A DNA stretch of 56,227 nucleotides from Muribaculaceae bacterium (GTDB lineage Bacteria > Bacteroidota > Bacteroidia > Bacteroidales > Muribaculaceae), in contig JAFYNZ010000037.1 of assembly GCA_017547845.1 (NCBI GenBank), positions 1 to 56,227 on the forward strand, read 5' to 3'. The position numbers and the translations under genes are program-made. This document shows positions 334 to 45,703 of this stretch, one piece after another; within the stretch, counting starts at the first letter, position 1, and each line of letters starts with the position of its first letter. Under the pieces are notes generated by a model. It was not told where the DNA came from and searched no databases. It saw nothing but the letters and a program-made list of their open reading frames with translations.

Positions 334-2157
334 ATGAAAACAGTTAAAATTTGTTATGTGTCCTTAATAGCATTTTTGCTTGCTGGATGCGGTCTGTTTG
401 AATCCGAAAAAAACGAGTTCATTCCTGTAAAAGAGAACAAATCCGACAAATGGGGATTTATGTCTCTTGATGGAGAAATGATAATCGAAAATGAATTTGA
501 AAAGACTCCAACTTTTCCAATGGAAGGCGTTTTTTCTGTCGAAGAAAAAGATGGATACAGTGTTTTTCTTTTGAAAAATCGTCCTGAGTTAATTAAAGGT
601 TGTGAAAATCTAAAAAGTGTTGGTTGTATGAGTAATGGTGTTATGCCTACAGTTCAAAAAGGCAAACGCATTTCATACATCAACAAAAAGGGTGAAATTC
701 TTTTTACATTAAATCCTATCAAGGGTAAAGAGATTATATGTGTCAGTGCTTATTTTGATGATAAAAATTATGCTATTATTGAAACTGAAGATAACAACTT
801 TGGATACATTAATAATAAAGGGGAAGTCGTAATTAACCCAAATTTCAGTTGTGCTCTGCCTTTTTCAAAAGATGGTTATGCTCTTGTATGTAAAGAAATA
901 GACGGCAAACCAAATTGGCAAATTATAGACAATAATGGAAAAACAATTCTTAAAATCGGAGAAAAATACAATCCTTGCTATCCGTTTGTGATAAACGAAA
1001 AATTAGCTGTACTGCTTGATGATCATTTCGGATTTCTTGATTTAAGCGGTAAATACAGCAGATGTCCAGACTTTGTAGAAAGAATCATTGATATTACAAA
1101 AGATGGTTTCGTATACTATTCAAAAGACAAATATGGTTTCATGAATTACGAGGGTGAACAAATTATAAGAGCTAGATATTCAGGCATCCAAATTCTTGAT
1201 AATGGTAAATTCCTTGTAAACAATGATAATGAATTTCTAATCCTAAATTCAAAAGGAGAAAAAGAAGTTTCGATTGATGATTATAGAGGTATCTATGTAA
1301 CTCCAAACACAAATGTACTATTGGCAAAAATTGGTAATGACTGGGAATTAATTAACTATGAAGGAAAAATAGTTACAAAAAATCCTCTTTCAGAAGTTAA
1401 TATTATTCAAACTATTGAATTCGCACCTAATGATGCTTTAAAGACATTGGAATCAGTAACTTCAAATTATCTTTCAGAAGTTAATACTCTTCAAACTATT
1501 ACATCCGCAACCGAAGATGCATTAAACATATTGGAATCTGTAGCTTTAAATTATCTCAAACTATATAATTTTTCACGAGGAAGAGTCTATTCCGATATTA
1601 AAAATAATTCAGACACATCTGATGATGACACACTTGACATTAATGAAGATATAGTTACTCATAGCTCTGATTCTGTTGCAATTGCGATGGAAAACAAACA
1701 ATTAGAGGACTTTATGCATAAAGTAATGTACAAAAAAACCAATGAGCAAACCATCTACGACCACGGATCTAGAGAATTTATTAGATTAGCAAAAAAATTG
1801 TGTGACGAAACGCCGATGTTAGAGATGGAGGACGAGCACAGCTTCTTGGATGCTTTATGGGCAAATCCTGTCAGCATGGCCGATGAAAATTTATCTGCAT
1901 CGATCGCTTCTATCAAAATTTTAAATTGCGATGGCTCAGAAGGCAATGTCTTGATAAAATTTAGATGGAAAGATAAAAGCATAAATAAAATAATTGACCA
2001 TTGGCCTAGTCAAATGATTGCAAAAATGAAGAAAGAAAACGGCAAATGGGTATTTGATGACCTAGAATATCTTAACGGACGTACAGCAAAATGGTATATC
2101 AAAAATCCTAAATTCTCAAATGATAGACATCGACTATATATGCCTGGAGAATATTAA
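334..2157 (+). CDS. WG-repeat lipoprotein
   Basis: The protein starts with a lipoprotein signal (LLAGCG, lipid Cys19), so it is exported and membrane anchored. From about residue 39 to 345 it has at least six to eight WG-type repeats, seen as WGF/YGF/WEL followed by xxxGE and hydrophobic residues (for example WGFMSLDGEMII, FGYINNKGEVVI, YGFMNYEGEQII). Such repeats are known in bacterial surface and periplasmic proteins and usually mediate binding; the ligand here is unknown. The middle holds a 28-residue tandem duplication (DNA 1387-1554). The C-terminal third has no WG repeats and resembles a small alpha/beta domain. A terminator follows at 2194. Codon use is more AT-rich than in the housekeeping genes further right. 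The function is not established. Confidence 0.8.
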   Translation: MKTVKICYVSLIAFLLAGCGLFESEKNEFIPVKENKSDKWGFMSLDGEMIIENEFEKTPTFPMEGVFSVEEKDGYSVFLLKNRPELIKGCENLKSVGCMSNGVMPTVQKGKRISYINKKGEILFTLNPIKGKEIICVSAYFDDKNYAIIETEDNNFGYINNKGEVVINPNFSCALPFSKDGYALVCKEIDGKPNWQIIDNNGKTILKIGEKYNPCYPFVINEKLAVLLDDHFGFLDLSGKYSRCPDFVERIIDITKDGFVYYSKDKYGFMNYEGEQIIRARYSGIQILDNGKFLVNNDNEFLILNSKGEKEVSIDDYRGIYVTPNTNVLLAKIGNDWELINYEGKIVTKNPLSEVNIIQTIEFAPNDALKTLESVTSNYLSEVNTLQTITSATEDALNILESVALNYLKLYNFSRGRVYSDIKNNSDTSDDDTLDINEDIVTHSSDSVAIAMENKQLEDFMHKVMYKKTNEQTIYDHGSREFIRLAKKLCDETPMLEMEDEHSFLDALWANPVSMADENLSASIASIKILNCDGSEGNVLIKFRWKDKSINKIIDHWPSQMIAKMKKENGKWVFDDLEYLNGRTAKWYIKNPKFSNDRHRLYMPGEY

Positions 2158-2193
2158 ACTTTTCGAAAAACAATTAATTAAGGGAGCAATACA

Positions 2194-2235
2194 AAAATCA
2201 GGGCTTGGCTCAATTGGTTCCAAGCCCTAATTTTT
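2194..2235 (+). terminator. Intrinsic terminator
   Basis: AGGGCTTGG (2200-2208) pairs with CCAAGCCCT (2220-2228), flanked by AAAAATC and AATTTTT, which extend the stem. It ends transcription of the WG-repeat gene. Confidence 0.75.
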
Positions 2236-2264
2236 GAGAAATATAACCTTGCAGACACAAACTT

Positions 2265-2717
2265 ATGAAAATCGACTATAACGACCGACAAGTAGAAGCG
2301 TATGCTCTGGTGATGAAGAAAGAGTATGCCTTAGAGATTTTGAAGGGTTCAAAGACAGTGGAGTTTAGAACCACCAGCAAGAAATACGATGGTATGTTTT
2401 TGGACAAGACTATACTGAAAATCAACGAAACATTGCGAAAACAAGGCAGAGATGACGAATGTGAATCTCCATTCCGCACTGACATCGAAGCAATACATTT
2501 CTATCCCTATAACAACTCCTGGTATCTTGATGTTGCGATTGATGAAATCGGCATAGTCGAGATTTCAGAGGAGGGTGCAAAGTTCTTGGCTGAAGAGTTT
2601 GGTTGTCACGAGTTTGACGATGAGTGGCAACAGTTTGCAGACTTGCCTGAAGATGAAATCCCATTGGTTTATTACATACATATCTGTGAGGTGATAAGCC
2701 ATCAAGGGCTGGATTAA
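2265..2717 (+). CDS. ASCH/PUA-like domain protein
   Basis: This is a 150-residue soluble protein without signal peptide. The early stretch ALVMKKEYALEILKGSKTVEFR matches the usual ASCH-domain opening (a Lys/Gly-Lys segment followed by a Glu-Phe-Arg strand), a fold related to PUA that is thought to bind RNA or modified bases. The remainder is rich in acidic residues. It follows a terminator and so is probably transcribed separately from the upstream gene. The family assignment is by motif only and the cellular role is unknown. Confidence 0.6.
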   Translation: MKIDYNDRQVEAYALVMKKEYALEILKGSKTVEFRTTSKKYDGMFLDKTILKINETLRKQGRDDECESPFRTDIEAIHFYPYNNSWYLDVAIDEIGIVEISEEGAKFLAEEFGCHEFDDEWQQFADLPEDEIPLVYYIHICEVISHQGLD

Positions 2718-2882: not shown

Positions 2883-4967
2883 TCAGTTGGAGAAGAAGGG
2901 GCCGATGGGGTTGAAGAAGACGTTGCCGAAGTTTTCGGCGTTGTAGAGCGTCACGTGTGAGCCCATTGTCTGAGAAAACACATCTGAATAGAGGTCTCTG
3001 ACTGATAACTCATAGATATTTCTCTGATATAGTGCCGTAAGCACGGCTGAAGTAAAGCTATTTGTGAGATAAGTCTTCCACATCGGAGCATACAACTCTG
3101 CTTTTGAAGTCTCCTTGTCGTTAGTCGCTGTCATCAACATCATTTTCGGCACTCCCACACACTCCATCGCCACACTACCGGAATAGCATGCCTCGATGAC
3201 TCCGAACATTTTGCGATACTTACCTGCAGAATACATTGCTTTGAACAATTCTGACATGAAACGACCATTAATCGTCTTCTGATTTTCGCCCCACAACAAT
3301 GTGCCCGGCACACCATGCCCTGACCATATTATCAACACATTGTGCTCGTCTGTAGAGTTGAGCACCTTCGGCAACTTCTCGCTTTTTTGCCCTAAAAGAA
3401 TCTTTTTTAAATCATTTGGTGTTATCTCATCAAGTCTGTAATCAATCGTTACATCAGTATAAAGATTTTCAAGCAGAGCATTATCTCTGATGACCTGCCC
3501 AGGATATGGATTATGTGTATCGTTGGCAATATCGTCAGCCATAATCAGGATTATGTCGTCATCTGTGAAATTGTTTTTTTTAAGATATTGGTAATATGCC
3601 AGCACATCTGCTTGATGACGATAGTCCTCCCACCCCGATGAAGTCGCAATCAACACAGCTTTTGTGCCTTTATAATCCTTAATATCGGCATCTTCCTGCT
3701 TGTAATCAAAGTCTTGGTCAAACATCTTGTTCCATATCCAAGCGCCATGTTCAGACGAGCCTGCACCTCCACCACGACTGACATAATCGGTCTGATAAAA
3801 CCTATGATTACTCATATACTGAACTGCATACGTCGAATAATTGATGATTGTATGCTTGTCGGGAGAAAACAAGAACTTTCCGAGTGCACCACTTATATTC
3901 GGGACTGTATGTTCCTCTACAATCTGCTCAAAAGCCATCTCAATCCCCTCGCTTGTCCATCCTCCGAAATACAAATCATCGGCGGCAAGCAGGTCACGCA
4001 CAGCGTGATTCAACGATATACCAAATTCTTGCGACATAGCATACGCCAGAGACGCAATCATTATAGCATCATAGAGTTGTGCTTCGCCGAATATAGGTAT
4101 CTGACCATATCTTGCTTCGTAAACATCTTGAAAGCCACTCGACGGATTTGGCACCATTGTCACACCCTTCATTATATAATCCTTATCGATTCCGTAGATT
4201 TTCACCAAATCGATAGTCCTATTGCCGAATGCCTTATGTGAGAAATACCCTTTATCGGTGTATTTCATCATCTCAACAGCCTCAAAGCATGAATTAGGCA
4301 CACAGACAATCGGACAACCCAACTTCGACAAATCCTTCATTGCTGCACCTATCTCTAATATATTGTCAAATGTGCGAATAGCCAAAGGGGTCAGGCCTAA
4401 TTCTGACGCTTGGAATGCAAACCAGTCAATGAAGGTCTGACTATAATCCGAGTCGCTTGCTATCAATGCAACTTCACGATTGTTGACATCTGTCGCTATC
4501 TGAGACAAAATCACCTCACTCTGGGTGATGTCACTCTCCGAAAGTCCCCACATGAAGCCCATTCTGGCATATTTACGAATCACCTCCTGAGAGGTATTGA
4601 ATGTGAACATAGGCTTCGGATTTTTCAGTCGCGACATCTGATATGCCAATTTCTCCGTATTATCCTCGCTTTCGCAACCGATGACACAAGCCACTGACTC
4701 ATCACGAGCAAGATCGTATGCGAGGTTCATCATGTCATAACTTTCTTCGTCGTAAAACTCAAAAACCGGGTTAATATCTGTGACCTTCCTGATATTGTTT
4801 TTCGCAAGGTCCATTATTCTATCCCATCGGTCGCGAGAATCTTCCGTCAAAACAACAGCTATCTTGATGATTCGCTCCTTGCGCTCATCTTTGACGGCAG
4901 GCTCGTCGCAACTGTGCAGAAACACAACAGTCGCTATGAGGAATAATATTTTATAGATACTTTTCAT
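2883..4967 (-). CDS. Lipoprotein fusing a type 1 periplasmic-binding domain to a legumain-like C13 protease
   Basis: Lipid Cys20 (FLHSCDE) anchors the protein. Residues about 33-400 look like a type 1 periplasmic-binding (Leu/Ile/Val-binding) domain: it opens with IKIAVVLTEDS, has alternating beta/alpha segments, and contains VALIASDSDYSQTF and YDAIMIASLAYAM. Residues about 435-690 match legumain/C13 endopeptidases closely: WEDYRHQADV, ADDIANDTHNPYPG, the catalytic His551 in WSGHGVPG, and Cys594 in EACYSGS. Both members of the dyad are present, so protease activity is likely, typically after Asn or Asp in this family. It is the last gene of a three-gene operon and overlaps the preceding gene by 17 bp, which suggests translational coupling. 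The inference is a ligand-responsive surface or periplasmic protease. The ligand and substrate are unknown. Confidence 0.85.
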   Translation of the reverse strand: MKSIYKILFLIATVVFLHSCDEPAVKDERKERIIKIAVVLTEDSRDRWDRIMDLAKNNIRKVTDINPVFEFYDEESYDMMNLAYDLARDESVACVIGCESEDNTEKLAYQMSRLKNPKPMFTFNTSQEVIRKYARMGFMWGLSESDITQSEVILSQIATDVNNREVALIASDSDYSQTFIDWFAFQASELGLTPLAIRTFDNILEIGAAMKDLSKLGCPIVCVPNSCFEAVEMMKYTDKGYFSHKAFGNRTIDLVKIYGIDKDYIMKGVTMVPNPSSGFQDVYEARYGQIPIFGEAQLYDAIMIASLAYAMSQEFGISLNHAVRDLLAADDLYFGGWTSEGIEMAFEQIVEEHTVPNISGALGKFLFSPDKHTIINYSTYAVQYMSNHRFYQTDYVSRGGGAGSSEHGAWIWNKMFDQDFDYKQEDADIKDYKGTKAVLIATSSGWEDYRHQADVLAYYQYLKKNNFTDDDIILIMADDIANDTHNPYPGQVIRDNALLENLYTDVTIDYRLDEITPNDLKKILLGQKSEKLPKVLNSTDEHNVLIIWSGHGVPGTLLWGENQKTINGRFMSELFKAMYSAGKYRKMFGVIEACYSGSVAMECVGVPKMMLMTATNDKETSKAELYAPMWKTYLTNSFTSAVLTALYQRNIYELSVRDLYSDVFSQTMGSHVTLYNAENFGNVFFNPIGPFFSN

Positions 4968-5988
4968 TTACTCCCTGCTTCTTAAAGTATTCTCTTTCTT
5001 TTGCCACAGCCTGAATGTACATAGCATCAAGTTGCTCCGAACTTGAACCCATCGCAGAGGATCTATCAACGACAACCCTCCCCGACTCTAATGTATAGAA
5101 TCTGTAACGAGGCACATCTTTGCCCTCTATCCAAAGTTCTAGGAAGTCATCTAATGCCAAATCCATACGTTTATTCATGCAAAGGTTGACGTAAAAGAAA
5201 GTGTCAGGATCAATACAATCTACACCTATGGCTATTTTATGATTGGATTCAGAGAAACGATACACCCCGAGATTGCTCATGCCTGCGTATGGGATAAATA
5301 TCTTCAATCCATCACCTTCTGACTTTGATGCGAGTTTGCATTCATAATATGCTTTATCATCATCATTCAATCCGTCTCCGGGAGACTGGCTGATATAATT
5401 TATACTGACAGATCCGGTTGTTGACTCCTCTGTCGCCGCAATAAAACCATCTGCTACTTCGTTGAGACCATACAAATATGGATTGGCTGAAATAAGCTGA
5501 AAGTCAATAGGCATAAAATTCAGATAAAAACTACCTATCATGTACGAAGCCCCATAATAGGTCATCGCAAACGTGTAGGCATACGGCAACTCCTTGGTCA
5601 CTTCAAACATCAGTATATCTTTATGAGAGTCTGCTGTGGGGTGAGTAGCATTTGCCAATGGCTCGTCATAGATATTGGATGCAAACACGAAAAGTGAACG
5701 TGAAACGTCATCGCTGACCTCCATCTCGCACCAATCTTTGTAATACTCCATACCCTCCTCTATCGATTCCGGCACACAAAATGAGTAGTCATACCCATAT
5801 TTGTGAGACAAACTCTCAATTGCTTTAAGGGTGATGTCGTTATATCCCATGTTGCAAAAACTTTCCGGAGTAAACAGCACATAGATATGTGCTACTTTCG
5901 GCATGCCCAAATCTTCATTCTTTGAGCACGCCGAAAACAAACCTATTGTCAAAATGATTTGAAAAGTCGCAAATAGGACTTTACGCAT
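4951..5988 (-). CDS. BMP/PnrA-like substrate-binding lipoprotein
   Basis: Lipid Cys21 lies in LFSACSKNED; the acidic residues just after the Cys would suit surface export in Bacteroidota. The mature part starts with KVAHIYVLFTPESFCNMGYND and reads like a BMP/PnrA/Med-type type 1 binding protein (VAHIYVL, later KIAIGVDCIDPDTFFYVNLCMNKRMDLALDDFLELW, near the usual VGVDxDQ region). BMP-family proteins often bind nucleosides, but no permease genes are adjacent, so it is unlikely to feed a standard ABC importer. It lies between the Asp-rich lipoprotein (3 bp gap) and the binding-protein/protease fusion (overlap). Having two binding-fold proteins in one operon suggests joint ligand sensing. Confidence 0.7.
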   Translation of the reverse strand: MRKVLFATFQIILTIGLFSACSKNEDLGMPKVAHIYVLFTPESFCNMGYNDITLKAIESLSHKYGYDYSFCVPESIEEGMEYYKDWCEMEVSDDVSRSLFVFASNIYDEPLANATHPTADSHKDILMFEVTKELPYAYTFAMTYYGASYMIGSFYLNFMPIDFQLISANPYLYGLNEVADGFIAATEESTTGSVSINYISQSPGDGLNDDDKAYYECKLASKSEGDGLKIFIPYAGMSNLGVYRFSESNHKIAIGVDCIDPDTFFYVNLCMNKRMDLALDDFLELWIEGKDVPRYRFYTLESGRVVVDRSSAMGSSSEQLDAMYIQAVAKEREYFKKQGVNEKYL

Positions 5989-5991
5989 ACA

Positions 5992-7563
5992 CTACTTCAC
6001 AAAATAAAAGTTTTTTCCATCGCGAAGTGGATAAGGGCTTGCCTGATATTGTGGCGCTGAGAATGTCCACTCTGACGAATCATGATTCATGCTGTTTGTC
6101 CACTCTAAATTCAATTGATTCCAAGCATCTTCTGTGAAACTCCAAGAAAGTGAACCTTCGAACATAGTTGCCTTAAAGATATCAAAATTTGTTTCCCATT
6201 TAGCCAAAGTATAACCAAGCACCTTGACCTTTGCACCGATATTTCCGGAAAGCGATGCGTACGCACCGACATTCGCCTCAACCGTGAAGCCTTCGCTTGG
6301 ATCATAAGCTGCAGACACTTCTGCCTCTGCACTGATAGATGGGCCAAACGCCATCTTTGGACCGACACTACCAGCCAAATAGAAACCTACTTCGTAGAAT
6401 GTGCCGGTATACGCTTCAAGAGATGCCGAGCCATTTATGCCGTCAAAACTAAATGACTTCGTTGACTTAGACTCCTTAGAGGTGTTTGTCCATCCGGTGT
6501 TGTACTCATACTTGAAGCCCTTCTCAAACTCTAATTGATATTTACCTGATGCTAAAAGTTCAACCGATGCTGTCGCTGTTGCTCCGGTTCGTTGCACCAA
6601 TGAGCTTTCAAGGGTGAACGGCACAGGAACTACACCCACCCAATAGACTAATGTCGTCTTGCCTAAAGACGCAAGTTTCTTTTCCCATTTTTTTTCAATC
6701 TCACGCTCTATGCCAACGCTCAACTTTGCCGCTGCTTCGACTGAGCCCTTCACTCCTGCTTCAAGTTTTCTGAGTTTAAACCAACTTATGTTGATATTAG
6801 CGTATGCAGAAAGTTTGGCTGCGACACCCACTTTGCCTCGGATATAAACCTCTGCACCACCTTCATCGTCGTCATCATCATCTGAATCATCGTCGTCATC
6901 ATCATATTCCGGATATCCAAACTCAAAGTCAGAGTCGATACTAATGATGTCAAAAGCAAGATTGCTTTCGAGAAGTTCCTCAGCGGTAAAATAATTCTTC
7001 ACTTCGCCGGTTCGTGTCTGGATACTGCGTGTAATCGGTGAGTTCTCATCAAGAATAACTACTGCAGGGTGATGGATACCTTCATCATCGATATATTTTT
7101 CAGACACATCATCTACTTCTTCATTAGTGCCGGCTCTTGTCACTCTTGTAGGCGCATCTCTATCGACATAAAGATCTGATTCAATCGAGAATTCAGCATC
7201 AGAGAACATATCGCTGAACTCACCTCTTGTAGTAGTGAGAATTATCTCGCCATTCTCAACCTTGGAATCAGTGATGATACGCACGAAAGGAACTGTCCCG
7301 ATTGTACGCCAAATAGTGACAACTCTGTTCTTGAAATTTTCAATACCCATCTTTTTAACATATGCCGCACTCACAGAAATGTATGTTGAGTCAGGCGACA
7401 CAATCTGCACATCATCGGGAGTGATGAAGTCTTCGTATGTCATTACTAACGGAGACAAATCCGCTGCCGGTGGCTCCGGTGTAGGAGCATCCTTTTCACA
7501 AGCACTTACTATGACCATAAGAAAGGCCATGAGAAACGAAAATTTCAAAAATTTTACTCGCAT
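5992..7563 (-). CDS. Large lipoprotein with Asp-rich linker, function unknown
   Basis: Lipid Cys22 (IVSACEKD) is followed by a Pro-rich stretch, an N-terminal domain to about residue 215, then a nearly pure Asp/Ser run (221-234) and a beta-rich C-terminal half full of Ala, Gly, Ser and Lys (GVKGSVEAAAKLSVG, SISAEAEVSAAYD, GAYASLSGNIGAKVKVLG). The C-terminal half alternates like an antiparallel beta-sheet. The acidic run may bind calcium or act as a flexible linker. It is the first gene of an operon with the binding-protein lipoproteins and has a strong promoter upstream. I do not recognise a family. Confidence 0.75.
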   Translation of the reverse strand: MRVKFLKFSFLMAFLMVIVSACEKDAPTPEPPAADLSPLVMTYEDFITPDDVQIVSPDSTYISVSAAYVKKMGIENFKNRVVTIWRTIGTVPFVRIITDSKVENGEIILTTTRGEFSDMFSDAEFSIESDLYVDRDAPTRVTRAGTNEEVDDVSEKYIDDEGIHHPAVVILDENSPITRSIQTRTGEVKNYFTAEELLESNLAFDIISIDSDFEFGYPEYDDDDDDSDDDDDDEGGAEVYIRGKVGVAAKLSAYANINISWFKLRKLEAGVKGSVEAAAKLSVGIEREIEKKWEKKLASLGKTTLVYWVGVVPVPFTLESSLVQRTGATATASVELLASGKYQLEFEKGFKYEYNTGWTNTSKESKSTKSFSFDGINGSASLEAYTGTFYEVGFYLAGSVGPKMAFGPSISAEAEVSAAYDPSEGFTVEANVGAYASLSGNIGAKVKVLGYTLAKWETNFDIFKATMFEGSLSWSFTEDAWNQLNLEWTNSMNHDSSEWTFSAPQYQASPYPLRDGKNFYFVK

Positions 7564-7972
7564 AAATTCGTAATTTGTAAAGTTTTTTATTAAAGAGTAT
7601 TATTCAATAACTATCATCTTCATTAAAAATTAGAAGTGATAGAGAGAACAAAGTTAAATCAAACATCTAATTATTCCAAACATTTTTTTACAAAACTTTT
7701 GGAAAATTATATTCTATTTACAGAGTGTTTACATAAATTGAAGCCAAAACCGGCAATAAATCTACAAACAATCTACATTTAAGCCGCGCCAACGACCAGT
7801 CAGAGGGCAAATCATGTGCGTCGCATTTAAAGAGTCGTTTATATTTCGACCGGATTTTAAAACTGCGATGACTGCAAATGCAGAAATAGTTTTCAAAACT
7901 TCCAAAAAGCATTTATAAATCCACGAGCCCACACGCTTCATTAATTATTCACAAACATACTACTGCGACATC
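7564..7972. other. Intergenic region between two minus-strand units
   Basis: This 409-bp stretch holds the promoter of the lipoprotein operon (7649-7680). The remainder is AT-rich, and I see no further gene or convincing terminator after the aminopeptidase stop. Confidence 0.6.
7649..7680 (-). promoter_or_regulatory. Bacteroidota promoter for the three-lipoprotein operon
   Basis: Read on the minus strand there is TTTG, a 20-bp spacer and TAACTTTG, matching the TTTG / TAnnTTTG consensus. The start codon is about 85 bp downstream. Confidence 0.75.
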
Positions 7973-16244: not shown

Positions 16245-16656
16245 TCATTCCCTTAAATATATTTTTTGTTTGTTTGATTGATATGCAGGTCTTTTTTTGT
16301 AGGTAGAAAGACTGCAATATTTTTGTGGCGCAAGTTTTTGTGTCAATTTTTTTTCGGTCTTTTTCCGTGAATTTTTTAGTCGAGAGCGTGAAAATTGTGC
16401 GAACGAGAGGTCTGAATTTGGTCGAATTTGATTGAAGACGACCTTGGCTGACTTCGAAAAAACGCATTGAGGTGAAGAAAAATTGATGGTGAAGAAAAAT
16501 TTTTTGAGGGCAATTTTGGCTTGAAATTGCCGGATTTTGCCCGAAAATCGTTCAAAAATATTGATTTGTAATAGTGAAAATCAAAAAAATGAAGATTTTG
16601 AGAAAAAAAGTTGCAAAATATTTTGTCAGTTTTGAAAATAGTCGTAACTTTGCACT
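16245..16656. other. AT-rich intergenic region before the SRP RNA
   Basis: No gene is visible. It contains T-rich tracts, a direct repeat of GGTGAAGAAAAATT around 16471-16505 and a small hairpin (GGCAATTT/AAATTGCC, 16509-16531). The SRP RNA promoter is at its right edge. Confidence 0.5.
16622..16652 (+). promoter_or_regulatory. Promoter of the SRP RNA
   Basis: TTTG (16622-16625), 19 bp, TAACTTTG (16645-16652) is an exact match to the Bacteroidota consensus. The expected start coincides with the first base of the RNA stem. Confidence 0.8.
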
Positions 16657-16754
16657 CGGGTAAGTCCTATACGACCAGCTCCTTGCGAATCCCCCCAGGA
16701 CTTGACCGTAGCAAGGGTAGTAGGTCGAGCGGTGCGATGTAGATTGCTTGCCCG
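16657..16754 (+). ncRNA. ffs: Signal recognition particle RNA, small bacterial type
   Basis: The ends pair as CGGGTAAG with CTTGCCCG. The centre carries the SRP-like helix 8 region: CCAGGACTTGACCGTAGCAAGGGTAG in two pieces, an asymmetric loop similar to the conserved AGCA/GGAAG elements that bind Ffh. The length of about 98 nt fits the 4.5S-type RNA. It lies directly after an exact consensus promoter and 3 bp before tRNA-Thr, so both may come from one transcript. A covariance search would settle it. Confidence 0.78.
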
Positions 16755-16757
16755 TAT

Positions 16758-16831
16758 GCCTCTTTAGCTCAGTTGGCCAGAGCACGTGATTTGTAATCTC
16801 GGGGTCGTTGGTTCGAATCCGACAAGAGGCT
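16758..16831 (+). tRNA. tRNA-Thr (anticodon TGT)
   Basis: A cloverleaf can be folded: acceptor GCCTCTT with AAGAGGC, D arm GCTC/GAGC, anticodon loop TTTGTAA giving TGT, and T arm GTTGG-TTCGAAT-CCGAC. The anticodon stem has one T-T mismatch. The 3' CCA is not encoded. Confidence 0.93.
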
Positions 16832-30423: not shown

Positions 30424-33400
30424 ATGAGAAAACTGTTTTTAATCCTGATGGCAGTTGTCGCTTGTGCATGGAGTGCAGTAGCACAAAATCGCACCATAAG
30501 CGGTACTGTTGTCGACGCGGCTAACAATGAGCCTCTCATTGGTGCCACAGTCCTTCCTAATGGCGGTGGACAAGGTACAGCTACAGACATCGACGGTAAC
30601 TTCACTTTGAGCGTTCCGTCTAATGTTAAGACTGCTACTATTACCTACATCGGTTACACTGCTAAGACTGTAGAATTGAAGAATGGTATGACAGTGCACC
30701 TTGCTGCAGAGTCTACTACTCTTGACGACGTTGTCGTAGTTGCTTACGGTACTGCTACCAAAGAATCTCTTACAGGTTCTGTCGCTGTCGTAGGTGCTAA
30801 AGAAATCGAAGACCGTCCTGTGACTTCAGCTACTGCTGCACTCGAAGGTAACGCTCCTGGTGTGCAAGTAAACTCTACTACAGGTCAGCCTGGTGATGAC
30901 GCTTCTATCGTTATCCGTGGTATCGGTTCGGTGACTTCTTCTACTGCTCCACTCATCGTAGTTGACGGTATGCAATTCCACGGCGCTGTATCTGACATCA
31001 ACCCTCAAGACATCGAGTCTATGTCAGTCCTCAAGGATGCTGCATCATGTGCTCTTTATGGTAACAAGGGTGCTAACGGTGTAATCCTTATCACTACTAA
31101 GCGTGCGAAGAAAAGAGACAAAATCGACGTTAACTTGACAGTTCGCCAAGGTCTCTACAACCGCGGTCTCCCTGAATACGATCGTCTCGGCGTTGACCAA
31201 TGGATGGAAACTACTTTCGCTGAATACTCTAACTTCTTGATGACTTCTAACCCAGCTAAATATCCAGACCGCGCTACAGCTAACGCTCAAGGTCAAGAAT
31301 ATTTCGTTGCTAACGAAGTTTTGAACAACATCTACAACATGCCTGGCACTGAATTGTTCGGCGCTGATGGTAAGTTGGTAGAAGGTGCTTACGTTCTTCC
31401 TGGTTACACTGACCTTGACTGGTGGGATGCTATCTCACGCACAGGTTACCGTCAAGAATACACTCTTTCTGCAGCTGCTGCTTCTGAAAAGTATAACGTA
31501 TTCGCTTCTGTAGGTTACCTTAAGGAAAATGGTTATATCCTCCGTTCAGACTACGAACGTTTCACAGGTCGTATCAACGCTAACTTCGCTCCTACTACTT
31601 ACTTGAACTTCGGTGTTAACTTGAACGCTACAACTCAAGATAGCGAACGCAACACTATGGCTGGTACTTCTTACGCAGCTAACCCATTCTCAACTCAATA
31701 CTATTCTCCAGTATATCCTTACTATCAACACGATGCTGAAGGCAACATCATGTATGATGAAGCTACTGGCGAACCAATCTTCAACACAGCAGGTTACCTC
31801 CAAAACCGTAACGTTGCTCTCGAGTTGAGAAAGAACTACACTAACTACAAGTACGACATGATCGACGCAACTGTATATGGTACAGCTGTTATCCCTTACG
31901 GTTTCGAACTTAAGATCACAGGTAACTTGAACCGCAACCGTACAACCGGTACTCAATATACTAATAACGTAATCGGTGACGCTGCATCTGTAGGTGGTCG
32001 TCTTACTCAAGCTTTCGACGCTACTAACTACTACACATTCATGCAACACCTTACTTGGTCACACGAATATGGTCGCAACCTCGAGCACCACGTTGACGTA
32101 CTCCTCGCTCACGAAAACTACGGTTACCACAACGAAGGTACTACTATCCAAAACATCGACCAACAACTCGCTGACAACTACTTGATCGATAACTTCCCAA
32201 CTAACGAAGGTTTCGGCGGTAGCTCAGTAGATGACCGTTCAGAATCTTACCTCGCTCGTGCTCGTTACGACTACAACCAACAATACTTCGCTGAAGCATC
32301 TATCCGTCGTGACGGTTCTTCACGCTTCCACCCAAATCACCGTTGGGGTAACTTCTGGTCAGTAGGTGGTAGCTGGATCATCAGCAAAGAAAAATTCATG
32401 CAACAAGTTGACTGGATCAGCTACTTGAAGCTCCGTGCTGCTTATGGTGCTGTAGGTAACAACGCAGGTGCATCTGCTTACGCTTACATGAACCTCTTCG
32501 GCTTCTCTAACTACGCTAAGCAACTCACATTCCTCCGCAGCCAGCTCGCTCGCGAAGACATCTCTTGGGAATCAACTAAGACTCTTGACCTCGCAGTAGA
32601 AGGTTCTATGTTCAACGACCGTCTCCGTTTCACAATTGGTTACTTCGACAAGCGTTCTGAAGACCTCCTCTTCGACGTAACTCTTCCTGCTTCTGTAGGT
32701 ACATTGAACGGTTCTAACCAATCAGTATTGACCAACATCGGTACAATGTCTAACCGTGGTTGGGAAATCGGTATCAATGGTGATATCATTCGCACAAAAG
32801 ATTTCTTGTGGACTGCAGGTATCGACGCTACATTCATCAAGAACACAGTTGTTAAGCTCCCTGAAGCTAACTACAAGGGCACAACAATGTGGCTTAAGGA
32901 AGGTCACGAGCGCTACGCTTGGTACCTCTACGAATGGGCAGGTGTTGACGAACTCACTGGTCAATCACTCTATCTCATCAACCCTGAGTCTGAAGACCTC
33001 GAAGGTTATGTTGACGCAAACGGTGACCCTGTTCCAACAGAAACAGTTTACCAATCATTGGTTGAAGCTGCTCGCAAGGACGGTGTTCTCGTAGAACATG
33101 GTGGTAAGGCTTACACTACATCTCCTACTACTAAGTATGCTACTAAGAACTGGGCAGGTACTCCACTCCCAACAGTTTATGGTTCTATCAATACAGCTCT
33201 CTCTTGGAAGGGTGTTAACCTCTCTGTATTGTTCACATACGGTCTCGGTGGTAAGACTCTTGACTCTAACTACTTGTCACTCGTGAATGTATCAGGTGCT
33301 AAGTCTGCAGTACACGCTGACGCTCTCAACTCTTGGACAGCAGCTCCAGAAGGTATGACAGCAGATGATCCTAACCGTATCAACCCTGATATCCTCCCAC

Positions 33401-33687
33401 AACACAACCGTGTTTACGCTACAGATAGCTACAGTGGTACAAGCGACCGTTGGTTGGTTAACTCTTCTTACCTCGTGTTCAAGAACTTGAACCTTTCTTA
33501 TGACCTTCCAGCTAAGTGGGTTAACCCATTGCAATTGCAACGCATCAACCTTGGTGTCAGCATCGACAACTTGTTCACAGTTACAGCTCGCAAGGGTATG
33601 AACCCACAACAATCAATGTCAGGTGGTCAAAGCCAAACATTCGGTACTGCACGCGTGTTCTCATTCCAATTGAACGTACAGTTCTAA
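30424..33687 (+). CDS. SusC/RagA-family TonB-linked outer-membrane protein
   Basis: A 1087-residue importer for glycans or peptides that works with a SusD lid. Domains in order: signal peptide (MRKLFLILMAVVACAWSAVAQ), carboxypeptidase-regulatory-like beta sandwich (RTISGTVVDAANNEPLIGATVL, about 22-100), a TonB-box-like segment (TLDDVVVVAYGTATKESLTGSV), plug (VNSTTGQPGDDASIVIRGIGS, ISVLKDAASCALYGNKGANGVI type motif) and a 22-strand barrel ending in SFQLNVQF. Codon use is extremely biased toward GCT, GGT, AAC and CTC, unlike the flanking genes, which suggests very high expression. The substrate is unknown, as no glycan enzymes or regulator are adjacent. Confidence 0.95.
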   Translation: MRKLFLILMAVVACAWSAVAQNRTISGTVVDAANNEPLIGATVLPNGGGQGTATDIDGNFTLSVPSNVKTATITYIGYTAKTVELKNGMTVHLAAESTTLDDVVVVAYGTATKESLTGSVAVVGAKEIEDRPVTSATAALEGNAPGVQVNSTTGQPGDDASIVIRGIGSVTSSTAPLIVVDGMQFHGAVSDINPQDIESMSVLKDAASCALYGNKGANGVILITTKRAKKRDKIDVNLTVRQGLYNRGLPEYDRLGVDQWMETTFAEYSNFLMTSNPAKYPDRATANAQGQEYFVANEVLNNIYNMPGTELFGADGKLVEGAYVLPGYTDLDWWDAISRTGYRQEYTLSAAAASEKYNVFASVGYLKENGYILRSDYERFTGRINANFAPTTYLNFGVNLNATTQDSERNTMAGTSYAANPFSTQYYSPVYPYYQHDAEGNIMYDEATGEPIFNTAGYLQNRNVALELRKNYTNYKYDMIDATVYGTAVIPYGFELKITGNLNRNRTTGTQYTNNVIGDAASVGGRLTQAFDATNYYTFMQHLTWSHEYGRNLEHHVDVLLAHENYGYHNEGTTIQNIDQQLADNYLIDNFPTNEGFGGSSVDDRSESYLARARYDYNQQYFAEASIRRDGSSRFHPNHRWGNFWSVGGSWIISKEKFMQQVDWISYLKLRAAYGAVGNNAGASAYAYMNLFGFSNYAKQLTFLRSQLAREDISWESTKTLDLAVEGSMFNDRLRFTIGYFDKRSEDLLFDVTLPASVGTLNGSNQSVLTNIGTMSNRGWEIGINGDIIRTKDFLWTAGIDATFIKNTVVKLPEANYKGTTMWLKEGHERYAWYLYEWAGVDELTGQSLYLINPESEDLEGYVDANGDPVPTETVYQSLVEAARKDGVLVEHGGKAYTTSPTTKYATKNWAGTPLPTVYGSINTALSWKGVNLSVLFTYGLGGKTLDSNYLSLVNVSGAKSAVHADALNSWTAAPEGMTADDPNRINPDILPQHNRVYATDSYSGTSDRWLVNSSYLVFKNLNLSYDLPAKWVNPLQLQRINLGVSIDNLFTVTARKGMNPQQSMSGGQSQTFGTARVFSFQLNVQF

Positions 33688-33734
33688 TTTAAGCGACCAA
33701 CAAAATTTAGAAATTATTTAAATAAGATAATAAT

Positions 33735-35402
33735 ATGAAGAATTTTATTATAAAGGGTTTGGCAAGTCTTCTTGTTGTTGGCTCTATGGCTTCTTGTTCA
33801 GACGATTACTTGAACACAACGCCTACAGGCTCAATTTCAAGCGAAATGATTTGCGCAAACGTTGATAACGCTCGCAAGGCGCTCTATGGTGCTTGCAGCA
33901 TTATGTACTCAATCAACTCTGCTACTCCTGCTCAACCTTACTGGGGTGGTGAAAGCGCAATGGGTATGTTCTACGGTGAAACTATCGGTCAAGACTGTCT
34001 CGACAGCTTCCTCTGTATCCAGACTAAGGGTTCATGGGATATGTTCCTCAAGATGGAACAAATTGACAACTCTGACTACATCTGGACTCAATCAATGTGG
34101 GTATACGCTTACCAAATCATCGGTCAGTGCAACGAAATCCTTGCAGGTATCGACGCTGCTGAAGGTAACGAATACGAACGTGAATTGATCAAGGCTGAAG
34201 CGCTTGCTATGCGTGCTCACGCTTACTGGCGTTTGATGCAATGCTACGCTCCACGTTGGAACGACTCTAACAATGGTCAAGCTGAATGTGTTATCCTTCG
34301 TCTCGAACCTACTACAGCTGATATGCCGGTAGCTACTTGCAACGATGTTTACAACCAGCTTTACAATGACCTCGACAACGCTATCGCTGGTTACCTAGCT
34401 GCTGAAGCTCAAGGCTTCAAGCCTACATTCAGCTGGGAACCAAGCAAGAACGTTTGCTACGGTATCTATGCTCGTATCGCATTGCTTAAGAACGACTGGG
34501 CTAAGGCTGCTGAAATGGCAGGTAAGGCTCGCGAAGGCTATACTTTGATGTCAGATGCTGACTACCGTATGGGTCACACTGTTGCCAACAACGAATGGAT
34601 GTGGTGGAACTCTCGTATCGCTGAAGACTCTATGATCTATGCAGACTGGGGTACAGCGTTCACAGCTAACGGTTACTACGCTTCTAACACAGTTTATGGC
34701 TCATTGCGTATGAACATCGACCTCTATCGTCAAATCCCTGAAACTGACATGCGTCGTGATTTCTACTTGACAGAAGATAAGCTCGGTCAAGATGTTGAGA
34801 AGATGTATGATGGTAAGAACGTTTCATCTGACGACCAAAAGATTAAGCAAGCTCGTCTCTTGAAGAAGGCTAAGGAATGGATGGCAGAAATCACTCCTGA
34901 AGGTTATGGTATCCCTTACCTCCAAAAGTCTGCAGAAACTGAACCACTCATCGCTTACGGTGCAGCTGTTAAGTTCCTCTCTGCTGTAGGTGAAACCGGT
35001 CCTGCTGCTCCTGCTTACATGCGTGCTGCAGAAATGTACCTCACTGAAGCTGAAGCATGGGCTATGTTGGGCGAAAGCGCTAAGGCTCAAGCTATCATGA
35101 ACGAAGTTAACCAACCACGCGACGCTCAATACACTTGTACAGCTACAGGTGACGAATTGATCGAAGAAATCCGTCTCTATCGTCGTATCGAACTTTGGGG
35201 TGAAGGCTTCAACTGGTTTGATCTTAAGCGTTGGGAAAAGGGTCTTGTTCGCCGCGTATGGGTAGAAGGTGACGCTACTTCTGGTAACTATCCTTCTTAT
35301 ATGGAATGTGACCTCGACAAGACTGTAGGTAATGGCTGGACATATGCAATGCCTAAGGCTGAAACTCTCTACAACGAGTCAGTTGCAAGCGACGTTAAAT
35401 AA
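33735..35402 (+). CDS. SusD/RagB-family nutrient-binding lipoprotein
   Basis: Partner lid of the upstream SusC. Lipid Cys21 (SMASCSDDYL) with the acidic residues typical of surface export in Bacteroidota. The N-terminal tetratricopeptide-like helices and the family C-terminal region (EEIRLYRRIELWGEGFNWFDLKRWEKG) are clear. Length 555 is normal. It begins 47 bp after susC with the same strong codon bias and ends at a strong terminator, so the pair forms a two-gene unit. Confidence 0.95.
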   Translation: MKNFIIKGLASLLVVGSMASCSDDYLNTTPTGSISSEMICANVDNARKALYGACSIMYSINSATPAQPYWGGESAMGMFYGETIGQDCLDSFLCIQTKGSWDMFLKMEQIDNSDYIWTQSMWVYAYQIIGQCNEILAGIDAAEGNEYERELIKAEALAMRAHAYWRLMQCYAPRWNDSNNGQAECVILRLEPTTADMPVATCNDVYNQLYNDLDNAIAGYLAAEAQGFKPTFSWEPSKNVCYGIYARIALLKNDWAKAAEMAGKAREGYTLMSDADYRMGHTVANNEWMWWNSRIAEDSMIYADWGTAFTANGYYASNTVYGSLRMNIDLYRQIPETDMRRDFYLTEDKLGQDVEKMYDGKNVSSDDQKIKQARLLKKAKEWMAEITPEGYGIPYLQKSAETEPLIAYGAAVKFLSAVGETGPAAPAYMRAAEMYLTEAEAWAMLGESAKAQAIMNEVNQPRDAQYTCTATGDELIEEIRLYRRIELWGEGFNWFDLKRWEKGLVRRVWVEGDATSGNYPSYMECDLDKTVGNGWTYAMPKAETLYNESVASDVK

Positions 35403-40635: not shown

Positions 40636-40693
40636 CAGACAGTCTGAATGCATCCGACCGCCGGTTTATCGGCTGATATTTTTATTGTTGAGA

Positions 40694-40725
40694 GTTGGAG
40701 AATTTAAAAAAAATGTCTAACTTTG
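40694..40725 (+). promoter_or_regulatory. Promoter of the corrinoid uptake operon
   Basis: GTTG, 20 bp, TAACTTTG (40718-40725). The expected start falls at the beginning of the riboswitch. Confidence 0.65.
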
Positions 40726-40732
40726 CAACGCA

Positions 40733-40873
40733 ATCGGAATCAAGGGAATCAGGTGAGAATCCTGAACAGAGCCGCTGCTGTAAGCCCACAAGAGGCTGAA
40801 TGATTTCACTGTCACCACTCCAACGACGGGAAGGAACATTCGCTTAAAGCCGGGATAAGTCAGAAAACCTGCC
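40733..40873 (+). promoter_or_regulatory. Cobalamin riboswitch 1
   Basis: Family landmarks are in order: GGGAATCAGGTGAGAATCC, then ACAGAGCCGCTGCTGTAA (the B12-box-like core), CGACGGGAAGG, and AAGTCAGAAAACCTGCC near the 3' end. It lies in the leader of a btuB-like gene, so high cobalamin should reduce expression. Confidence 0.93.
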
Positions 40874-40926
40874 GATTACTACATATTTTGTTGAAGCTTT
40901 CGAGCATTAGAGCTTACAAAAAACAG

Positions 40927-45312: not shown

Positions 45313-45408
45313 GCGGTCATCTGCATAGACAGACTGCGCGGTCGGCACAAGAGAGTGTCAATCGATAAAAACTACATATTGGGATAGCAGAAGGCTCGGC
45401 TTAACGTC

Positions 45409-45570
45409 GATTAAAAGGGAACGGGGTGAGAATCCCCGGCAGACCCGCTGCTGTAATTTCCGTGCCCATCAGGGCGATGCTTGATAAATGTCACTGAATA
45501 AATAGATTTCGGGAAGGCATCAAGCGTTATCTCTACTCAAGAGATGGAATAAGCCAGAAGACCTGCCTTT
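45409..45570 (+). promoter_or_regulatory. Cobalamin riboswitch 2
   Basis: Landmarks: GGGAACGGGGTGAGAATCCCC, GGCAGACCCGCTGCTGTAA, TCGGGAAGGCATCAAG and AAGCCAGAAGACCTGCC, the last an exact form of the 3' box. It controls the collagen-like DUF4465 lipoprotein. Confidence 0.95.
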
Positions 45571-45703
45571 GCTTGCCTTAAGGATATGCTTACGAGGACT
45601 TGAGCATTTGGCAATTTTCAGGTGACGATGAGGCCATCGGTGCACCCTGTCGACGACTATAGTATAGGCGTTCGGCAGATGCAATGTAGGACGCATGGGT
45701 GGC

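Follow-up and report, generated by a model that had tools for sequence, protein, structure and literature searches.

A conserved two-gene lipoprotein core with a legumain-type protease domain and alternative partner genes in Bacteroidales

Within a 56,227-nucleotide (nt) stretch of DNA from a Muribaculaceae bacterium (assembly GCA_017547845.1, contig JAFYNZ010000037.1; hereafter, the window), three adjacent genes on the reverse strand, P0003, P0002 and P0001 in 5' to 3' order, encode lipoproteins, the last of which carries a binding domain fused to a legumain-type protease domain of family C13 (Table 1). A preliminary description, made from the sequence of the window, had presented these genes as a three-gene system. 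All three open reading frames (ORFs) lie where it placed them, but the conserved unit is a core of two genes, P0002 and P0001, and not of three. The third gene beside this pair is one of several alternative partners, and among these the genes for MACPF-domain proteins are linked to the protease above background.

The P0002-P0001 pair

Our locus set comprises 31 loci from 29 genomes (the window, L002-L004, L046-L063 and L113-L121), and a P0002 homologue lies directly upstream of the P0001 homologue in 30 of them. With start codons chosen by script, the two ORFs overlap at 27 of these 30 loci and are separated by 27-28 nt at the other three; the overlap in the window makes translational coupling of P0002 and P0001 likely. 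The two proteins co-evolve: their distances across 27 loci correlate at 0.938, a value reached in none of 2000 permutations. The copies with split frames (L054 and L118) were omitted from both the tree and the correlation, and the near copy L114 was omitted from the correlation only. The preliminary description had regarded unlinked genes in related genomes as an argument against its system; the pair stays together, whereas P0003 also occurs apart from it.

The legumain domain of P0001 is recognized by Pfam (Peptidase_C13, E 1.2e-53), and solved legumain chains align to nearly its entire length (4noj, E 8e-30); the closest solved chains come from legumains and asparaginyl endopeptidases and not from transamidases. 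The complete legumain/C13 domain first reported for this 694-residue protein is thereby confirmed, together with the YRHQADV and NPYPG motifs, His551 and Cys594. No C11 domain was matched in P0001 by Pfam; the domain is C13, and so it is not of the C11 fragipain type. The His-Cys dyad of family C13, formed by His551 and Cys594, is retained in 30 of the 31 copies. Arg450 is kept in all 32 alignment rows that have a letter at this position (two copies each occupy two rows), and the position of Glu592 is occupied by Glu in 26 copies and by Asp in five. We take the legumain Arg, Glu and Asp counterparts of Arg450, Glu592 and Asn636 to be residues of the S1 pocket. The sole copy that has lost both catalytic residues is also the sole copy without P0002; this gene (L059:8343-10553), the second copy found in genome G548, is a dead or repurposed receptor. 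The genome of the window carries one C13 gene, and C13 proteins in bacteria were already known (a Pfam family; a Caulobacter control).

The N-terminal half of P0001 belongs to the LivJ-type (Peripla_BP_6) type 1 binding fold. As a single sequence it falls below the Pfam cut-off (Peripla_BP_6, E 0.088), but a family profile matched the LivJ-like structure 3td9 in the Protein Data Bank (PDB) at E 3.8e-16, and Foldseek and VIA-align searches with an AlphaFold2 (AF2) model also returned the type 1 binding fold; the model is poor (pLDDT 48.3) and no more than indicative, and this for the N-terminal domain only. The proposed fusion of a type 1 periplasmic-binding domain to a C13 domain therefore stands, and a half that did not fold as a binding domain, which would have told against it, is not what the family profile and fold search found. 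P0002 had been called a BMP-like binding lipoprotein, and this assignment also holds: its single sequence gave no Pfam match, but its family profile matched Lbp (7x0r, E 2e-17), BmpD (7e-10) and TmpC (1e-8), the relation to the BMP family (PnrA/TmpC type) spanning most of the domain. When the profiles of the P0001 and P0002 binding domains were compared with each other, only the signal-peptide region aligned.

Both proteins thus resemble the substrate-binding components of LivJ and BMP ABC transporters by profile, but P0001 differs from them in its protease fusion, and permeases of the corresponding kind are mostly missing. No LivH/M-type permease (BPD_transp_2) was found in the genome of the window (G000, 89.8% complete), and the earlier statement that no ABC permease is present holds for this type across that genome. 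Among 18 carrier genomes, 16 had no BPD_transp_2 match, one was matched strongly on another contig and one gave sub-threshold matches only. P0001 and P0002 are therefore unlikely to be transporter parts, and we rejected this assignment.

Alternative partners beside the pair

MACPF genes occur at six of the 31 loci (L049, L057, L060, L063, L115 and L119); at five of the six, the MACPF gene is the immediate upstream neighbor of the pair and shares its strand. In a whole-genome search of 18 carriers (the genomes of L115 and L119 were searched at the locus only), four contained MACPF genes, and all eight matches lay 1.3-5.9 kb from the P0001 homologue; the chance of such closeness in all four genomes is approximately 1e-9, assuming one random site per genome. 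In our sample of the order, MACPF genes were present in three of seven strong carriers versus 20 of 386 other genomes (Fisher p 0.005). The MACPF genes taken from two of the 20 non-carrier genomes were single genes with no P0001 or P0002 homologues nearby. PF01823 is present in the partner proteins of all six loci, and these proteins begin as lipoproteins wherever the start is available. Across 12 aligned MACPF proteins, GTH is invariant, and the exact YGTH...GG motif, which we take to be the MACPF signature, is found in 11, the other having FGTH...GC. L054 was not counted, because its MACPF profile match is to an accessory N-terminal domain; at this locus (L054:11632-14859), four small lipoproteins carry that N-terminal domain of MACPF proteins, and two that were checked have a sub-threshold zinc-ribbon match.

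At six loci, including the window, the neighboring gene belongs instead to the P0003 family. The relatives in L002-L004 share 55-57% identity with the window protein over the aligned parts (L004 is incomplete) and lie upstream of the pair, as in the window, whereas in L116 and L117, which are far from the window and close to each other, the relative lies 3' of the protease gene, behind a gene for a 123-aa lipoprotein. A search of 79 genomes detected the family in seven: it adjoins the pair in G000, G1106, G1128 and G548 (in G548 as a divergent, N-terminal part only) and is unlinked to it in G019, G1109 and G1111. Because G1106 and G1128 are close kin, the linkage amounts to about three independent cases. 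Among 247 genomes of the window's family, six contain the P0003 family, four of them without a P0001 match. Weak matches were obtained in three genomes in the 247-genome search and in two in the 79-genome search, and L122-L125 were looked at. A Pfam scan of P0003 gave no match. P0003 had been described as a large lipoprotein with a run of Asp residues; the lipoprotein and the run are both real, but the run is part of a hypervariable linker and relatives without it exist, and it was therefore rejected as a conserved element.

Small lipoproteins form a further group of partners: one family recurs at 10 of the 31 loci, a second at nine and an overlapping third at six, with the count restricted to stretches below 1e-15 (for one of the families, 1e-20), a cut-off that was adopted because iterative searches drift on signal peptides. 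No MACPF, P0003-family or recurrent small-lipoprotein partner was identified at L052, L055, L056, L058, L059 and L120; L058 is included here because its match to P0003 is confined to the N-terminal part. Several loci end at contig edges, and some of the absences may be false.

More distant or sporadic neighbors were also recorded. AraC-type or sensor-kinase genes are present in at least six of the 22 fetched loci (L046, L050, L052, L053, L054 and L059), approximately 3-9 kb from the pair, on varying sides and in no fixed place. SusD-like genes with SusC-like neighbors are found in two of the 22 (L046 and L052), 3-8 kb away and again in no fixed place, with a sensor-kinase or AraC-type regulator beyond them. 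The regulator in L046 (12521-15235) is a hybrid sensor kinase with an N-terminal Peripla_BP_4 binding domain, located next to the SusC/SusD-like set and approximately 9 kb from the legumain gene. A TonB receptor gene lies upstream in L047. Just 3' of the legumain gene, L003 (5857-8370) and L004 (4198-6633) carry C10 (streptopain-type) protease genes; in the L003 product, an I69 inhibitor-type domain is accompanied by a sub-threshold match to a Por-secretion tail, and the L004 product is similar by clustering. A secretory-lipase-like (PF03583) lipoprotein is encoded directly downstream of the legumain gene in L055 (551-2143) and L056 (6873-8462; by clustering).

Distribution and further features of the window

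The presence of the P0001 system is patchy among the Bacteroidales genomes searched. Of 297 genomes from the window's family, 12, including the window's own, contain relatives of P0001; in three other families of the order, the corresponding counts were 1 of 13, 7 of 56 and 4 of 18, known carriers included. In the order sample, a C13 match at E 0.001 was obtained in 52 of 393 genomes, but the strong form was confined to seven (eight copies with E values up to 2e-40 and frames 694-782 aa long). In a phylum sample, 123 of 395 genomes matched the profile; the match was full-length only in the window's genome and covered one part in the others. A further partial P0001 match (a third) was recorded in G1138 (C91).

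L113 shares 99.8% identity over 6 kb with L114, from another genus, and 99.9% over 15 kb with L118, and L113 and L114 nest in the tree among copies of the window's family; the system therefore moves horizontally. Transposase-like and ParA/Tra-like genes, named by eye, lie alongside in the L113, L114 and L118 DNA (two genera), and the L118 legumain gene is split by a frame break. P0001 had no match in phages or plasmids, no relative was confirmed among viral contigs, and PHROGs and PADLOC gave no matches; a phage or plasmid origin was rejected.

The consensus TTTG-N20-TAACTTTG, which we take to be the Bacteroidales-type promoter, is matched 10 times in the window against 1.04 expected; one match precedes P0003, and none of the ten falls within the operon. 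A scan for terminators 3' of P0001 found none. The remaining features that we recorded in the window are given in the lower rows of Table 1.

Table 1. Features of the P0003-P0002-P0001 operon and of other parts of the window
Feature	Position	Strand	Remarks
P0003	5992-7563	-	523-aa lipoprotein encoded by the partner gene; fold unknown
P0002	4951-5988	-	345-aa BMP-family binding lipoprotein
P0001	2883-4967	-	694-aa lipoprotein, type 1 binding domain + legumain/C13 protease domain
P0002 stop/P0001 start overlap	4951-4967	-	17 nt; from ORF coordinates
LivJ/class-C-receptor-like binding domain	3828-4880	-	P0001 residues ~30-380; family profile vs PDB, Foldseek, VIA-align
Peptidase_C13 domain	2928-3659	-	P0001 residues 437-680; Arg450, His551, Glu592-Ala593-Cys594, Asn636
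Asp run	6865-6903	-	P0003 residues 221-233; interdomain linker, variable and rich in acidic residues or Asn
Promoter match TTTG-N20-TAACTTTG	7649-7680	-	86 nt ahead of P0003 start
WG-repeat lipoprotein and protein with sub-threshold ASCH match	334-2717	+	convergent with the operon
Bacteroidales small SRP RNA	16651-16831	+	tRNA directly after
SusC/SusD-like pair	30424-35402	+	TonB plug and SusD domains
Cobalamin riboswitch	40679-40890	+	ahead of TonB receptor (40888)
Cobalamin riboswitch	45374-45584	+	ahead of 599-aa DUF4988/collagen/DUF4465 protein (45808)

A possible receptor with proteolytic output

A binding protein and a binding-domain protease, co-translated and mostly without a matching permease, are best read as a receptor with a proteolytic output, and the MACPF linkage in relatives, which the window does not show and which is the strongest pointer to function, suggests that this output acts on surface effectors. 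We propose that the two core proteins form a receptor-protease that is anchored by lipid, probably at the cell surface, and in which P0002 (BMP type) and the P0001 binding domain (amino-acid-receptor type) would sense one or two small ligands, ligand binding turning the legumain domain on or off. P0001 would then cleave co-encoded surface lipoproteins, probably after Asn/Asp. In one clade and one further locus, the partners include proteins of the MACPF pore-forming type, similar to the BSAPs (Bacteroidales surface lipoproteins with MACPF domains; PMC12853789), and processing would mature, release or disarm the pore-former. In the window, the partner would be P0003, and its Asp/Asn-rich interdomain linker is a candidate cut site; the composition of this hypervariable stretch is compatible both with a cleavage loop and with simple disorder. 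On linkage and precedent, we give about even weight to the reading in which a surface protease, gated by ligand, processes surface effectors encoded beside it; of its parts, we infer the surface location, the gating, the cleavage event and the role of P0003 as effector. The broader proposal, that a two-receptor, ligand-gated legumain would represent a new class of bacterial surface signaling, controlling pore-forming and other effector lipoproteins of the outer membrane, with P0003 as a new effector family, is put forward tentatively and with considerable doubt.

Each of the three window lipoproteins has a signal peptide and a lipid-attachment Cys, which is followed by charged, mostly acidic residues (CEKDAP, CSKNED and CDEPAV). 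An acidic motif behind the lipid Cys (SDDDD in B. fragilis) is described, in the available text of the source, as a surface-export signal of Bacteroidetes (PMC5080379). The window motifs are similar to this consensus but none matches it exactly, and surface location is therefore plausible only.

Several known systems resemble parts of this proposal, and those from Bacteroidales are strong precedents. The C11 surface proteases (fragipain, doripains) and the P0001 C13 domain are both, as we take it, clan CD cysteine proteases. According to the available portions of the respective papers, these C11 enzymes are lipid-anchored at the surface of Bacteroidales and process secreted antibacterial toxins, activating BcpT (PMC9308784), Fab1 (PMC8406203) and the CDCL toxins, from which a surface lipoprotein protects the producer (PMC11169675), and they cut after Arg/Lys (PMC12853789); the same portions mention neither a fused binding domain nor an operon link to the toxin. 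P0001 differs in its family, in its fused sensor and in its linkage to neighboring genes. The BSAPs are likened to our system by the MACPF domains and lipoprotein starts of the partners at six loci, but no protease-sensor pair is mentioned in the text available for them (PMC12853789, PMC4999547), and the window partner P0003 is not MACPF. In dendritic cells, mammalian legumain (AEP) is reported to cut perforin-2 (PMC7614779, in part). The protease family is that of P0001 and the partner is a MACPF protein, as at our six loci, but mammalian legumain is lysosomal. It is also not known to have a binding domain. The parallel that the broader proposal would draw between the bacterial and mammalian legumain-MACPF associations is perhaps convergent. 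Class C, NMDA and GABA-B receptors and other binding-domain-fused effectors likewise join a LivJ-like binding domain to an output domain, but the output of P0001 is a protease; we know of no binding-domain-protease fusion with a described function. Our literature search on legumain/C13 proteins in Bacteroidetes, with MACPF or with lipoproteins, which left most subscription papers and preprints outside its scope, found no description of such a system, in line with the preliminary description, which knew of none with the layout that it set out.

A number of observations weigh against the effector-processing proposal. MACPF genes are found at only six loci, five of these form one clade (98/98 support), and 19 of the 31 loci lack both a MACPF gene and a relative that matches P0003 over the greater part of its length. 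The profile comparison of P0003 with MACPF aligned the signal-peptide region only, so that the interpretation of P0003 as a diverged MACPF was rejected; its search against PDB chains returned nothing up to E 10, and its AF2 model, built from four sequences, is uninterpretable (pLDDT 36.5). The position of the legumain Asp is Asn636 in P0001 (Asn in 21 copies, Asp in nine and Thr in one); specificity for Asn/Asp is therefore not assured, and the P1 preference may differ. According to the text available to us, the fragipain gene lies outside the BFT island and it is target-cell proteases that activate CDCLs, and an operon-linked activator is therefore not the known pattern; the legumain cut of perforin-2 is reported, in the part of the source seen, to be unneeded for pore formation in vitro (PMC7614779).

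In a rival interpretation, the core has an unrelated job, MACPF genes joined it once or twice, and their linkage to it is hitch-hiking specific to one clade. The single clade and the majority of loci without MACPF agree with this idea, which we regard as a real if tentative possibility, but the clade covers three families (f55, f106 and f108), L049 is separate in f1, and the MACPF gene takes the same upstream, same-strand position at five of six loci; for the MACPF clade, hitch-hiking and effector processing are not mutually exclusive, and hitch-hiking is also compatible with the alternatives that follow. Nutrient scavenging, in which the surface protease would cut host or dietary protein and the binding proteins would hold amino acids, peptides or nucleosides for other uptake, would suit the nutrient-type binding folds of P0002 and P0001, the TonB receptor in L047, the C10 protease gene downstream in L003 (with a similar gene in L004) and the SusC/SusD-like sets in L046 and L052. 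We consider it unlikely, with SusD-like genes in just two of 22 loci and in no fixed place, no LivH/M-type permease detected in 16 of the 18 carriers searched and the MACPF linkage left unexplained.

Regulated signaling or shedding without any toxin, in which the protease would cut P0002, itself or small lipoproteins and release signals or sensors, finds a basis in the recurrence of the small lipoprotein families, in P0002 being the only near-universal partner and in the AraC-type or kinase genes at some loci; these regulators, however, have no constant distance or side, the MACPF linkage would become a coincidence, and we judge this course of events quite improbable. The C13 domain may instead join proteins to a surface acceptor without hydrolysis, as a subunit of GPI transamidase does. 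The solved relatives include GPI transamidase and asparaginyl ligases, but the former is related to P0001 in C13 sequence only, the partners are already lipid-anchored and the closest chains are not transamidases, which leaves transpeptidation very improbable.

If the effector-processing proposal is correct, small-molecule sensing by gut Bacteroidales would feed directly into the proteolytic control of antagonism at their surface, bacterial C13 proteases would gain a biological setting, and a simple model for the action of legumain on MACPF proteins would become available. Should the toxin link fall away, a receptor-protease pair that is conserved across several families, mostly in genomes without a matching permease, would still represent an unexplained surface system.

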